Assembly: GCA_017464045.1 (NCBI GenBank)
Contig: JAFUEG010000096.1
Location: 1-14,488, forward strand
Source: Lachnospiraceae bacterium
GTDB lineage: Bacteria > Bacillota_A > Clostridia > Lachnospirales > Lachnospiraceae
DNA: 14,488 nt
Direction of reading: 5' to 3'
Positions 1,429 to 5,521 of the stretch are shown here, piece by piece. Position 1 is the stretch's first letter; each line of letters starts with the position of its first letter. The notes beneath the pieces were generated by a model. That model was not told the origin of the DNA and did no database searches. It saw only the letters and a program-made list of their open reading frames with translations. A program made the position numbers and the translations under genes.

Positions 1429-1534
1429 CTTTTAATCGATAAGTATTCACTCTCATTAAAATCTTTAAAATCTCGAAATAGTTAATACCTTTTAATCAAT
1501 AAACCTTTGCTATCATTTCATTAAAACCTAAAAT
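1429..1534. repeat. Diverged direct repeat at the MBOAT 3' end
   Basis: Two related AT-rich copies of about 45 bases lie at 1429-1471 and 1489-1534, 60 bases apart. Both start with CTTTTAATC, continue with ATAA, and share a CATTAAAA core followed by CT and AAAAT. The second copy runs into the last codons and stop of the MBOAT gene. The match needs small gaps and the DNA is AT-rich, so an old tandem duplication is likely but not certain. No terminator-like GC stem is visible in this gap. Confidence 0.35.
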
Positions 1535-3029
1535 ATAAAAACGGATTGAAGGCTTCGCTTGCCAGAAATGCTGTCGACATAAGCAAAACAAAAAGTAAAA
1601 ATACCGCTTCTATAATGCCTGCAGCAAGACCTCTTTTTTCAACGTTTTTAACTACGTTACTGTTCTTGCCGGATTTCTCGTTTATGTTTGACTTATCACT
1701 GGTGTCATCCTCTTTGCTCATTCCCTCAAGCTTGGCTATAAGCTTCCCTGCAAGCTCCCTCGGATACGGAGTAGCCGCAACAAATGCGATAAGCAAAAAT
1801 AATCCGTAAGAAAGCAAAATATATACAGTATAGTTATTGGTAAGTGAAAGACCTCCAAATCCAAACATATTTCTTACTGCGGTCTTTAATTCACCAAATT
1901 TATCATAAGCAAAAATCACCCATCCGAAGTTAATGAAAAAGAGTGCATACAGATGAGCCAGAAGCTTTGGCCATTTATCCAATTTTTTAAGCAGCCACAC
2001 CTTTTCAATCACAAGCAGAACAAAATAATAAAGTCCCCATATAATAAAGTTCCACGAAGCGCCATGCCAGAATCCGGTCAAAAACCACACTATAAAAAGA
2101 TTTCTGTAGGTCTTTGCCGTTCCTTTTCTGTTACCGCCGAGAGGTATATAGACATAATCCCTAAACCAGGTGGATAAGGATATGTGCCACCTCCTCCAAA
2201 ACTCCGTAAGACTCTTTGATATATACGGATAGTTAAAGTTTTCAAGGAACTTAAAGCCAAACATCCTGCCTAAACCTATCGCCATATCCGAATAACCTGA
2301 AAAATCAAAGTATATCTGAAGTGTAAATGCTATCGAACAAATCCATGATAATATTACAGTATTTTGATCCTTTGGAAGTTTGGAAAGCGTATCAAATATC
2401 TCTCCTGCCATATTGGCTATAAGCACCTTTTTACCGAGTCCGGTAACAAATCTTCTTACGCCCTCACCAAAATCATCCACATTTTCCTTACGTTCTTCAA
2501 GCTGCTTTGCAACCGTCTCATATCTTACTATCGGTCCAGCGATAAGCTGTGGAAAAAGCGTTATATAAGTCGCAAGATTAATTATATTCTTCTGCGGCTT
2601 TGCAGTCCTCCTATAGACATCTACCGAATAAGTAAGAATCTGGAAGGTATAAAAAGATATTCCAAGAGGAAGGGAAAGATTAACCGCCTTTATATGAATG
2701 TGCGGAAGCTTATTGATATTATCCGTAAAAAATCCCATATACTTAAAGAAAAACAATATACCGAGATTGATAATAACCGCAAGTGCAACCATCCACTTTG
2801 CCGCTTTTATCTTCTCTTTATTCATATAATAATCAGTAAGCAGCCCCATAACATATCCGACAATTATGGATGCAAGCATCACAAAAACGTACTTAGGCTC
2901 ACCCCATGCATAAAAAAGGAGTGAAAACACCATAAGTACGAAATTCTTAATCGCCCTCGGGCTTATATAATACACCAGCAAAACCGCCGGCAAAAAAGCA
3001 AATAAAAAAGTGATGCTTGAAAATAACAT
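1521..3029 (-). CDS. MBOAT-family membrane-bound O-acyltransferase (AlgI/DltB-like)
   Basis: This polytopic 502-residue protein has many hydrophobic helices from the N-terminus to the C-terminal FLYFRF. The MBOAT signature is clear: LPLGISFYTFQ at 120-130, FPQLIAGPIVRY at 159-170, IYFDFSGYSDMAIG at 239-252, FWRRWHISLSTWFRDY starting at 277, and GFWHGASWNFIIWG at 319-332, whose His322 corresponds to the invariant catalytic His. Family members move acyl groups across the membrane for transfer onto cell-surface polymers. The length matches AlgI-type enzymes. A charged loop at about 445-475 (Lys, Asp, Asn, Ser) interrupts the last helices. The start has AGGAG with a seven-base gap. The DHHW protein follows on the same strand and is the likely extracellular partner. 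DltB is less likely because no dltA, dltC or dltD gene is in view. Confidence 0.9.
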   Translation of the reverse strand: MLFSSITFLFAFLPAVLLVYYISPRAIKNFVLMVFSLLFYAWGEPKYVFVMLASIIVGYVMGLLTDYYMNKEKIKAAKWMVALAVIINLGILFFFKYMGFFTDNINKLPHIHIKAVNLSLPLGISFYTFQILTYSVDVYRRTAKPQKNIINLATYITLFPQLIAGPIVRYETVAKQLEERKENVDDFGEGVRRFVTGLGKKVLIANMAGEIFDTLSKLPKDQNTVILSWICSIAFTLQIYFDFSGYSDMAIGLGRMFGFKFLENFNYPYISKSLTEFWRRWHISLSTWFRDYVYIPLGGNRKGTAKTYRNLFIVWFLTGFWHGASWNFIIWGLYYFVLLVIEKVWLLKKLDKWPKLLAHLYALFFINFGWVIFAYDKFGELKTAVRNMFGFGGLSLTNNYTVYILLSYGLFLLIAFVAATPYPRELAGKLIAKLEGMSKEDDTSDKSNINEKSGKNSNVVKNVEKRGLAAGIIEAVFLLFVLLMSTAFLASEAFNPFLYFRF

Positions 3030-3060
3030 ATCTATCTCCTATGATACGTTAATATTATTA

Positions 3061-3088
3061 ATTATATATTATTCAAACCAGTACATAA
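3061..3088 (-). promoter_or_regulatory. Possible promoter of the MBOAT-DHHW operon
   Basis: On the minus strand a perfect TATAAT lies at 3061-3066, with a weak -35-like TTATGT at 3083-3088 separated by 16 bases. Transcription would begin about 25 bases before the ribosome binding site of the MBOAT gene. The region is very AT-rich, so a chance match is possible. The repeat array begins 25 bases upstream of the -35 hexamer. Confidence 0.35.
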
Positions 3089-3113
3089 TCTAACTATATT
3101 CCAAATTTTTTAA

Positions 3114-3528
3114 TTACCTATAAGATAAGAAATAATTTCAATTTTTATAGGTAAATATATCATTCCATTACAAAATAGATTTCTTCAATTACCTATAAAA
3201 CTGATACATATTACACTTCTTATAGGTAAAAATATTATTCCATTACTAAATAGATTCTTCGATTACCTATAAAACTGATACATTTAACACTTCTTATAGG
3301 TAAAATAATTAATCAAAAAGATGATAAATATCTTAAATTACCTATAAGTCTACTACTTACTACCCATCTTATAGGTAATACCATCAATCGTCAACCTGAT
3401 GAACTTCGTAAATTACCTATAAATCTATCACATGAAATCAACCTTATAGGTAATGCCATCAATTACATAACTGATGCACTTCATAATTTACCTATAAATC
3501 TACCTTATGCAGCCTATATTATAGGTAA
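3114..3528. repeat. Array of six regularly spaced inverted repeats (TTACCTATAA / TTATAGGTAA)
   Basis: Six units, each exactly 41 bases, lie at 3114-3154, 3189-3229, 3263-3303, 3338-3378, 3413-3453 and 3488-3528. Each is TTACCTATAA, 21 bases, then the exact reverse complement TTATAGGTAA. Unit starts are 75, 74, 75, 75 and 75 bases apart, leaving 34-base gaps (33 once). All twelve arms are identical. The 21-base loops diverge: units 2 and 3 differ at two positions, units 4 to 6 share only a TCTA near the start, and unit 1 is unlike the rest. Gaps 1 and 2 resemble each other, as do gaps 4 and 5, which points to growth by tandem duplication. No open frame covers the array. It lies between the helicase terminator and the acyltransferase promoter. 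Function is unknown; the sequence would suit a clustered binding site or a row of short hairpins. Confidence 0.95.
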
Positions 3529-3550
3529 TTTCAAATCACAACCCAACTTA

Positions 3551-3608
3551 ACAAAAGCCTAAATCAGCTTAAAATATAATAATATTAATATAATACAATT
3601 TCAAGGCT
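3551..3608 (-). terminator. Probable terminator after the helicase gene
   Basis: Seventeen bases past the helicase stop, the minus strand has AGCCT, a two-base bulge and AAAT, which pair with ATTT and AGGCT, followed by TTTTGT. The loop between the arms is long (about 33 bases) and AT-rich with its own self-complementarity. The GC part of the stem is short, so this is a weak candidate, but its position and T-run fit the end of the SEC-C/helicase operon. Confidence 0.35.
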
Positions 3609-3624
3609 AATTTTAAATAAACAA

Positions 3625-5436
3625 TCAGTTTAGAAAAGAACTCCTACTCTTCGGTTTACCGGCGACTTCTTTTGGCGTATATACATATAATTCATGCCGG
3701 GCACGTGTCATAGCAACGTACAGCATGCGGCGTTCTTCTTCTATCTCGCCGGCGGTTTTAGCCTTGCGGTATGGGATGCATCCGTCTACTACGTTCATGA
3801 TATATACACAGTCAAACTCAAGTCCTTTTGAACTGTGCATGGTCATAAGCCGAAGACCTTTCTTGTCCTTTTCCTCTATCTGCTGTTTCTTTAAGACCTC
3901 TGAATATTCTTCAATAAATTCAAAAAGCTCGCCGTAGCTTTTAAAGTCAACTATCATACTAGCAAACTCATCCAAAGCCTCATACAGCTCATCTTCATCA
4001 AGCTGTCTGAACTCGGCATAGTCCTTTATGTAATCATCAAAGCCGACTGCATTTCTTATAAAATTAAGCGCCGGATATGGCCGCATCTTGCTTATAAGTC
4101 TTAAGTCTGCGATAAGCTTGTCGATTCTTTCAACCACATATTCCTTATCCCTTGCCCGATATCTTAGAGCATTAAAATCAATCTCCTCTTCAAGCAGAAG
4201 ATTTCTGCTTATATATCTGCTTGGCTTATTCATTATCTGCAGGAAAATCGACCTGCTCCTGTCACCCATGGCAAAGCGCATATAATTAAGCACACCCTTT
4301 ACGACAAAATGCTCAAATATATTGGGCAACGTATCGCTTATGGTATAAGGTATGTTAAATTGATTAAGCTTATATACAAGACGTCTTGGCTCGATATTGG
4401 TTCGATAAAGCACAGCCTGTTCTTCGTAAGGTATGCCTGCCGCAAAATGCTCTCTTACACTTGAAATAATCGCATCATTTTCAGAATTGGTATCTTCTGT
4501 TTCAATTATTTCAAACTTGCCCTCAGAAGTATTATTTGAAACCAGTTTCTTATCAAATCTCTTTTTATTGTCTGCAATAAGCTTGGACGATACCTTCGTA
4601 ATCACTTTGTCGCATCTGTAGTTTTCTACCAGATAATATTTCCTGGTGTTTTTAAAATCCTTCTCAAACAAAAACATTATCTCAGGTCTGGCTCCGCGAA
4701 AGCCGTAAACCGACTGGTCATCATCGCCGACTACAAATACATTTTCCAAAGGCTTTGCCAAAAGCTTAAATATCTCATATTGAATTTTATTACTGTCCTG
4801 AAATTCATCAATCATTATATACTTAAATATTTCCCTGCAGCGTTTAAGTATATCCGGTCTCTTATTTAAAAGCTCATAGCACATAACCATCATATCGTCA
4901 AAATCAATTTTGCCGAATCGTTTCATCTCATGATTAAATCTTTTATAAATCTCCCTAAATTCATCCTCAGGTATATCCTTGCTGTAGTAGTTTTCTATGT
5001 CTATCATATCGCATTTAACGATCCCTATCTGCGCGATAATACTTGATATGATATCCTCTTTATTTTCATATTCAAGAGACATCCCCGAAAGAATTTTATC
5101 TATTAACTTTCTTTTTTCATCATTTGAGATTACACTGGAATTGTTTAGATTGTATGCTGTCTTAATAATCCAAAAATAAATCGAATGAAATGTACCGAAT
5201 CTTACCTGATGGTTTTTTCCTCTTGTCATAGCCTTGAATCTTTGTTCCATCTCGCGGGCTGCCGCTCTTGTAAAGGTTATAACAAGAATATCTGCGGGCG
5301 AAACACCCGCAGATTCTATTAAATACTTTATTCTACCTGTAATGACTGCTGTCTTTCCGGAACCCGGCCCTGCAATTACCATACACGGCCCATCTACATG
5401 CTTTATGGCATGCTCCTGTTCCTTACTGTAATTCAT
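3625..5436 (-). CDS. UvrD/PcrA-type superfamily 1 ATP-dependent DNA helicase (compact form)
   Basis: This 603-residue protein has the full set of SF1A helicase motifs: Walker A GPGSGKT at 23-29, motif Ia TFTRAAAREM at 54-63, motif II IMIDEFQDS from 207 with the DExQ residues, motif III VVGDDDQSVYGFRGA at 235-249, motif V TMHSSKGLEFD at 532-542, and motif VI ending in YVAMTRAR at 573-580. Family members move 3' to 5' on single-stranded DNA and act in repair or removal of bound proteins. At about 600 residues it is shorter than standard UvrD/PcrA (over 700), as in a common clostridial paralogue group, and it ends in KSRSSFLN without the usual long tail. The frame extends upstream to a TTG at 5454, but the ATG at 5436 has AGGAG seven bases before it and was chosen. 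It follows the SEC-C gene by 85 bases. Whether it replaces or supplements a housekeeping PcrA cannot be told here. Confidence 0.9.
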   Translation of the reverse strand: MNYSKEQEHAIKHVDGPCMVIAGPGSGKTAVITGRIKYLIESAGVSPADILVITFTRAAAREMEQRFKAMTRGKNHQVRFGTFHSIYFWIIKTAYNLNNSSVISNDEKRKLIDKILSGMSLEYENKEDIISSIIAQIGIVKCDMIDIENYYSKDIPEDEFREIYKRFNHEMKRFGKIDFDDMMVMCYELLNKRPDILKRCREIFKYIMIDEFQDSNKIQYEIFKLLAKPLENVFVVGDDDQSVYGFRGARPEIMFLFEKDFKNTRKYYLVENYRCDKVITKVSSKLIADNKKRFDKKLVSNNTSEGKFEIIETEDTNSENDAIISSVREHFAAGIPYEEQAVLYRTNIEPRRLVYKLNQFNIPYTISDTLPNIFEHFVVKGVLNYMRFAMGDRSRSIFLQIMNKPSRYISRNLLLEEEIDFNALRYRARDKEYVVERIDKLIADLRLISKMRPYPALNFIRNAVGFDDYIKDYAEFRQLDEDELYEALDEFASMIVDFKSYGELFEFIEEYSEVLKKQQIEEKDKKGLRLMTMHSSKGLEFDCVYIMNVVDGCIPYRKAKTAGEIEEERRMLYVAMTRARHELYVYTPKEVAGKPKSRSSFLN

Positions 5437-5521
5437 ACACAAACTCCTATACAATTAGTTCCACAGCATTAACAAAGTTCTTTTATTCATTAGCTCAAAA
5501 GCTTCCATAAACGTATAATCA

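Follow-up and report, generated by a model that had tools for sequence, protein, structure and literature searches.

Miniature inverted-repeat transposable elements (MITEs) are short repeats, non-autonomous and with inverted arms, that occur dispersed in intergenic DNA, and in type III toxin-antitoxin systems a repeat array stands directly before a nuclease gene. In the REPIN/RAYT partnership, as described in two papers, short palindromic intergenic repeats go together with an HUH tyrosine transposase and are tagged by GTAG (PMC3116915, PMC3733652). Here we consider a six-unit palindrome array in a contig of 14,488 nucleotides from a Lachnospiraceae bacterium (JAFUEG010000096.1, assembly GCA_017464045.1), the whole of which we call the window. 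We think it probable that this array represents a dispersed copy of an element, built as a palindrome array, that belongs to a family of PD-(D/E)XK-like proteins of about 280 amino acids, in a partnership resembling that of REPIN and RAYT. Other genomes and loci are cited by G and L numbers where they need to be told apart.

The array consists of six exact units of the form TTACCTATAA-N21-TTATAGGTAA within positions 3114-3528 of the window. All twelve arms are exact (starting at 3114, 3145, 3189, 3220, 3263, 3294, 3338, 3369, 3413, 3444, 3488 and 3519), every loop is 21 bases long, and the distances from unit to unit are 75, 74, 75, 75 and 75, a period of about seven helical turns. With up to one mismatch allowed, the arm has 16 matches in the window, as compared with a mean of 2.21 and a maximum of 7 in 200 dinucleotide shuffles. 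These positions and shuffles confirm an earlier note, made from the letters alone, which had described six units with identical arms, 21-base loops and a 75-base period (74 once). The same note had stressed wide divergence of loops and gaps; this divergence is not independent from unit to unit. Relatedness is plain to see in the loops and gaps of units 2 and 3 and in stretches of units 4-6, and so some of the units are tandem duplicates. The array and its units are as follows:

3114..3528, no strand: complete phased palindrome array, from arm positions and period fit
3114..3154, no strand: unit 1, TTACCTATAA-N21-TTATAGGTAA, exact arms
3189..3229, no strand: unit 2, exact arms
3263..3303, no strand: unit 3, loop almost identical to that of unit 2, a tandem duplicate
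3338..3378, no strand: unit 4, exact arms
3413..3453, no strand: unit 5, exact arms
3488..3528, no strand: unit 6, exact arms

In other genomes, the arms can be read beside a gene. At five loci, an array of TTACCTATAA units lies 11-73 base pairs (bp) from the gene for a protein of about 280 amino acids (a Lachnospiraceae example is L002, 563-1417, minus strand), and relatives of this protein adjoin palindrome arrays of their own with other arms. An array detector applied to the 600-bp flanks of 98 nuclease loci gave a score of at least 28 at 70 of them and at least 39 at 57; these loci are not a random sample, 30 having come from the first family search, 29 as the best per genome and 40 by hand-picking down the list, with L122 (no family match) left out. 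None of 1950 shuffled flanks reached 28. Among 741 control windows of real DNA, four scored at least 28, two of these being evident arrays of other families, and one scored at least 39; in 60 helicase flanks used as a further control, only three known arrays scored. Where the score was at least 39, the array was upstream of the nuclease gene in 54 flanks and downstream in 5.

Each array-bearing member examined has its own arm, so that arms vary between proteins; four Saccharofermentans-type relatives form one clade and have no arm in common. Conversely, TTACCTATAA-type arms accompany proteins that do not form one clade (approximately unbiased test, p 1.3e-33; five changes on the tree). The same or nearly the same TTACCTATAA arm is seen beside non-clade nucleases from different phyla, with different periods, at L108-L113, L117 and L118. 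Such recurrence might come from convergence, from a restricted code or from arrays being exchanged.

In an AlphaFold2 model of the protein (predicted local distance difference test score 87.7), the C-terminal domain appears PD-(D/E)XK-like, with weak to middling structure matches, and residues E176, D207, E222 and H223 are invariant in the family alignment. The N-terminal part is modeled as a helix, a beta hairpin and a long helix; its prefoldin- and Rad50-like structure matches may simply reflect a coiled coil in the model. An AP2-like integrase arm-binding domain was considered for this part and rejected on the modeled fold. For three family members, Pfam at its cut-off gave no family, and Pfam and NCBIfam gave no transposase family; a sequence search of the PDB with the protein gave a single match at E 0.029, taken as noise. 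Among 250 genomes of the family to which G001 belongs, 77 have a member of the protein family at E <=1e-30.

The spacing of units links the arrays to the double helix. Modal unit spacings cluster near 53, 63, 74, 85, 95 and 106 bp, and the best-fitting period is 10.6 bp with a phase near 0 (R 0.896; L194, with a spacing of 168, was excluded from the test). Taking one locus per protein cluster gives R 0.899 below 60% identity (n=43) and 0.885 below 45% (n=19), and none of 20000 random sets reaches either value. The number of turns is equal in 51 of 53 protein pairs at 50% identity or more, as against 295 of 1333 pairs below 40%, and it changes 16 times on the protein tree, where each of 500 shuffles needs 23 changes or more. 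Arrays with TTACCTATAA-type arms have periods of 63, 73, 75, 84 and 95. Because turn numbers agree in related proteins while TTACCTATAA periods vary, array spacing, judged from sequence, tracks the protein lineage and not the arm. Units lying on one face of double-stranded DNA explain whole-turn spacing; RNA hairpins do not. Among the options raised in the earlier note, the evidence now favours a cluster of sites bound by an unknown protein, since a candidate protein has been found and the periods are quantised by the helix.

A search of other genomes shows that the unit is not confined to the window and recurs at many intergenic sites. The genome-collection scan for two arms 18-24 bases apart returned 77 stretches, 46 of them with at least two exact units; most come from metagenome-assembled genomes (MAGs) of rumen or gut origin, belonging to Lachnospiraceae and further Clostridiales, with several stretches to a genome. 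In Fibrobacter genomes the TTACCTATAA units are mainly single. Within the 31 genomes reached by the scan, 11 carry at least two units (up to 39 exact) and 20 carry one, and a reversed control pattern occurs in none of them. Different TTACCTATAA arrays have only arms and spacing in common; units inside one array are related, and thus units multiply in tandem. Arrays within one genome can be alike in sequence, the common part being mostly the array itself and not its flanks. In G006, a compound array (CGGTAACAA units, then TTACCTATAA at a fixed 82 bases) is copied to three places.

Arms read beside nucleases can likewise be searched for elsewhere, and this was done for four arms, each in 16 genomes. 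TTACTTGCTG occurs 24 times in G016 (20 away from the nuclease), TACGCGCA 44 times in G104 (40 away) and CCGACTGA 12 times in G252 (5 away), each with no copy in the 15 other genomes. CGGTAACAA occurs three times in G002, always beside its nuclease, once in G001, 24 times in G006 and in none of the remaining 13. Dispersal in the arm's own genome, as predicted, was thus found for three of the four arms.

Several observations on these arrays stand apart. Compound CGGTAACAA/TTACCTATAA arrays of G006 are seen at L237, L239, L240 and L242. In G016 arrays (L244, L246, L252 and others), a second palindrome of TTTACGTACCTAAA type is appended to TTACTTGCTG arrays, at L246 about five helical turns beyond the last TTACTTGCTG unit. 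At L037, L061 and L065, in three genomes, a single unit lies within a conserved coding sequence of about 125 amino acids (90-96% identical), which we read as chance and descent. The exact unit was also found in 30 stretches of viral contigs, all with a single unit and a varying loop; these were set aside as chance. Finally, in the comparison of L021 with L054, a contig assigned to a Ruminococcus flavefaciens MAG shares 95.8% identity across 5.2 kb with a contig of a Lachnospiraceae MAG, probably through a binning error in one of the two.

Orthologous arrays can be compared position by position, and in most of them arms differ less than loops and spacers, a comparison that favours conserved arms because the loci were found through exact arms. 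Between the window and G001, differences number 2/100 in arms, 10/105 in loops, 18/136 in spacers and 29/275 in the flank. The corresponding counts for arms, loops and spacers are 0/60, 3/61 and 3/68 for G002/G006; 0/50, 2/51 and 5/68 for L017/L043; 1/80, 7/84 and 7/99 for L059/L016; and 0/60, 19/62 and 34/83 for L034/L008; the L054 and L021 arrays are identical. The selection-like constraint on arms and spacing proposed in the earlier note is supported, and the free variation of arms in relatives that would have told against it is confined to two exceptions, taken up below.

The array lies in an intergenic gap of 595 bases (3030-3624), confirming the earlier description of its place between helicase and acyltransferase genes, both on the minus strand:

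1521..3029, minus strand: MBOAT acyltransferase gene, context only; the array lies before its 5' end
3625..5454, minus strand: UvrD-type helicase gene, context only; the array lies behind its 3' end, with the orthologous position in G001, G002 and G006

In the genus, the search gave 30 loci of helicase orthologues, and three of them (those of G001, G002 and G006) have an array at the window's position; some units are common to the window and G001, and others to G002 and G006. No usable empty site was found there, array-less relatives having a different gene behind the helicase, and a second comparison gave no clean empty site, with replacement by other array families seen instead. No target duplication was identified by eye in the flanks of 62 arrays. 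Among other repeats near helicase genes, L209 (5' side, G006) has repeats in direct orientation, each some 34 bp long (CTCCTATGCATTAG... type), unrelated to the arms, and L211 (behind the gene, G281) has a run of GCAA/CAAG tetranucleotide repeats.

Leaving out L267 (same place as L034), L021 (near-duplicate of L054) and 18 loci whose single unit was put down to chance, and counting orthologous sites separately, 24 of 85 array loci are at contig edges; the other 61 comprise 28 between convergent genes, 30 between co-directional genes and 3 between divergent genes, two of the last at the nuclease gene itself. One convergent site can be followed through eight close genomes: the arm is TTACCTATAA in G004, TTACCTATCA plus TGACGGATAA in G009, ATTACGGCT in G318, CATTCCAAA in G327, CTACCGACAAAAT in G355 and GTGTACCTAAAAGTG in both G335 and G338, and G010 has no array. 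The arm matches one beside a nuclease of the same genome in G004, G009 and G318, and nearly so in G327; that of G355 resembles the arm beside a G318 nuclease. From these sequences the place looks like a favoured site colonised repeatedly, with three genomes that do not fit. Judged by eye and without a control, arrays at L244, L246, L268 and L270 start within the T-run of a terminator-like hairpin or right after it, and terminators adjoin some arrays of G016 and G004; an insertion preference is possible.

Not everything agrees with a strict partnership of array and nuclease or with constraint on the arms. CGGTAACAA failed the prediction of dispersal in its own genome, being dispersed only in a relative, G006, where no nuclease with a CGGTAACAA arm was found. 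The genomes with at least two TTACCTATAA units contain a family member in ten of 11 cases, and just six of the 11 (G001-G005, G008) have a nuclease beside TTACCTATAA-type arms; four have only members with different arms, and G015 has none. At the convergent site, the arms of G355, G335 and G338 match no nuclease arm of their own genomes. Against arm conservation, differences in the arms are high in L011/L050 (10/55) and L072/L012 (19/60), for which poor alignments, lost units or real decay are the alternatives. Incomplete MAGs, nuclease loss or arm change can explain the mismatches, and the G015 array contig, which closely matches a contig of another MAG, may be misbinned; the imperfect genome-by-genome matching remains a point against strict dependence of arrays on the nuclease. 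Among the 20 single-unit genomes, four have a full member (G011, G013, G014, G016), G022 has a weak domain match and 15 have none. The idea that CGGTAACAA is confined to genomes with its own nuclease was rejected; L120 and L129, which are 92% identical to each other and just 57-59% identical to L127, adjoin ATGGCTAA-type arms.

The pairing and the phasing are established from sequence; binding, cutting and mobilisation we infer. In the mechanism that we propose, the protein, as a dimer or in a larger assembly, would bind the double-stranded form of each palindrome, and adjacent units on one helix face would join in one complex. An array upstream of the nuclease gene would tune expression of that gene, and the nuclease activity would cut, copy or move arrays, which would grow in tandem and reach further intergenic sites, chiefly those flanked by convergent or co-directional genes. 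The whole would operate in the manner of REPIN/RAYT, through a different enzyme and a different geometry of DNA. We lean slightly towards a broader claim, that this is an undescribed class of partnership, in which the PD-(D/E)XK-like nucleases of a large family in gut bacteria would each write and maintain a palindrome code of their own, in whole-turn arrays scattered genome-wide. Specificity would shift fast, favoured sites would be re-colonised by a new code and turn number would be a slow trait of the protein; the system would be a counterpart of REPIN/RAYT that is driven by a nuclease and acts on double strands.

Phasing by whole turns and conserved arms would suit any cooperative DNA-binding protein, including a DNA-organising or regulatory protein with little or no cutting, whose arrays would serve as operators or as sites of chromosome folding, multiplied by ordinary duplication and retained through selection. 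The mostly upstream position beside the nuclease gene is operator-like; however, dispersed arrays between divergent genes are few (3/61), the presence of several arm families in one genome and their replacement from site to site among close species have the look of mobility, and the catalytic-type residues are invariant. We consider such static sites unlikely, though deserving of appreciable weight. The C-terminal domain matches the end of the PADLOC candidate family PDC-S68 (E about 1e-23), as might be expected of a system akin to defence or addiction, in which arrays would titrate the nuclease or mark DNA as self. That match is limited to the nuclease domain, however, and no defence partner genes were seen, none having been sought; nor is a phage tie shown, the family being absent from PHROGs except for one weak match, phage and plasmid matches being few, weak and partial, and the viral contigs searched with the protein alignment giving one stretch that matched a pattern and none that encoded a relative. 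This role is improbable.

The two other options of the earlier note fare worse. Every unit has a possible RNA fold (-7.1 to -12.1 kcal/mol, z -1.6 to -4.9), and arrays often lie behind the 3' ends of genes, as hairpin rows in mRNA or guide- or antitoxin-like RNAs might. A period quantised at 10.6 bp has no RNA reason, however; loops are unconstrained, arrays are dispersed through the genome, and an Rfam scan of the window gave no family at its gathering score. Whole-turn phasing above all speaks against hairpins as the main function, which we rate very improbable. Origin, partition or terminus elements typically have repeated phased binding sites, but here genomes carry up to 39 exact units at many places, with many arrays and several arm families each, and presence is patchy, most species having no array at the same site; such an element is scarcely credible.

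With the nuclease partnership as the preferred explanation, more than 5,500 'hypothetical' proteins would gain a testable role, and dispersed repeats of gut and rumen bacteria a candidate author. Whole-turn phasing over dozens of unrelated arms is a rare and clean sign, in raw sequence, of a protein assembly reading many sites on one helix face, and the many naturally matched pairs of protein and arm can serve as data from which to learn how proteins of this kind select their DNA.

Set beside known systems, the arrays share with MITEs the form of short inverted-arm repeats dispersed in intergenic DNA, and differ in having tandem phased units, not one terminal repeat pair, with no target duplication identified. 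Like type III toxin-antitoxin arrays, they stand in front of a nuclease gene; unlike them, they are inverted DNA palindromes in whole-turn phase and are dispersed away from the gene. They are not CRISPR, as the earlier note had judged: the arms are 10 bp and inverted, adjacent spacers are related to one another, and no cas gene is present among nine scanned window proteins. The proteins differ from the nearest known PD-(D/E)XK nucleases (the homing endonuclease I-Bth0305I, TnsA of Tn7, Bax1 and Vsr) in their N-terminal helix-hairpin-helix region, and we know of no pairing of those four with dispersed palindrome arrays. The open-access literature, to which our search extended, held no description of the array/nuclease pair, and a text search of papers for the window arm and its complement gave no title or abstract concerned with such repeats.

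The closest likeness is to REP/REPIN-RAYT as presented in the papers cited above (PMC3116915, PMC3733652): short palindromic intergenic repeats in inverted pairs, clusters beside the cognate gene, a different repeat for each paralogue, a preference for co-directional and convergent intergenic sites, and arrays copied between sites. As against that system, the partner here is PD-(D/E)XK-like by predicted fold and not an HUH/tyrosine IS200-type transposase, the window arm and five searched families have no GTAG/CGTC arm end, units are phased by whole helical turns, and arrays have only arms of about 10 bp and spacing in common, with no whole conserved element. Because two defining features, the HUH transposase and the GTAG/CGTC tag, are lacking, we do not class the system as a member of REPIN/RAYT. 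In our judgement, enzyme and phased double-strand geometry set it apart; if the common layout is given more weight, it can be regarded as a variant of the REPIN/RAYT kind.
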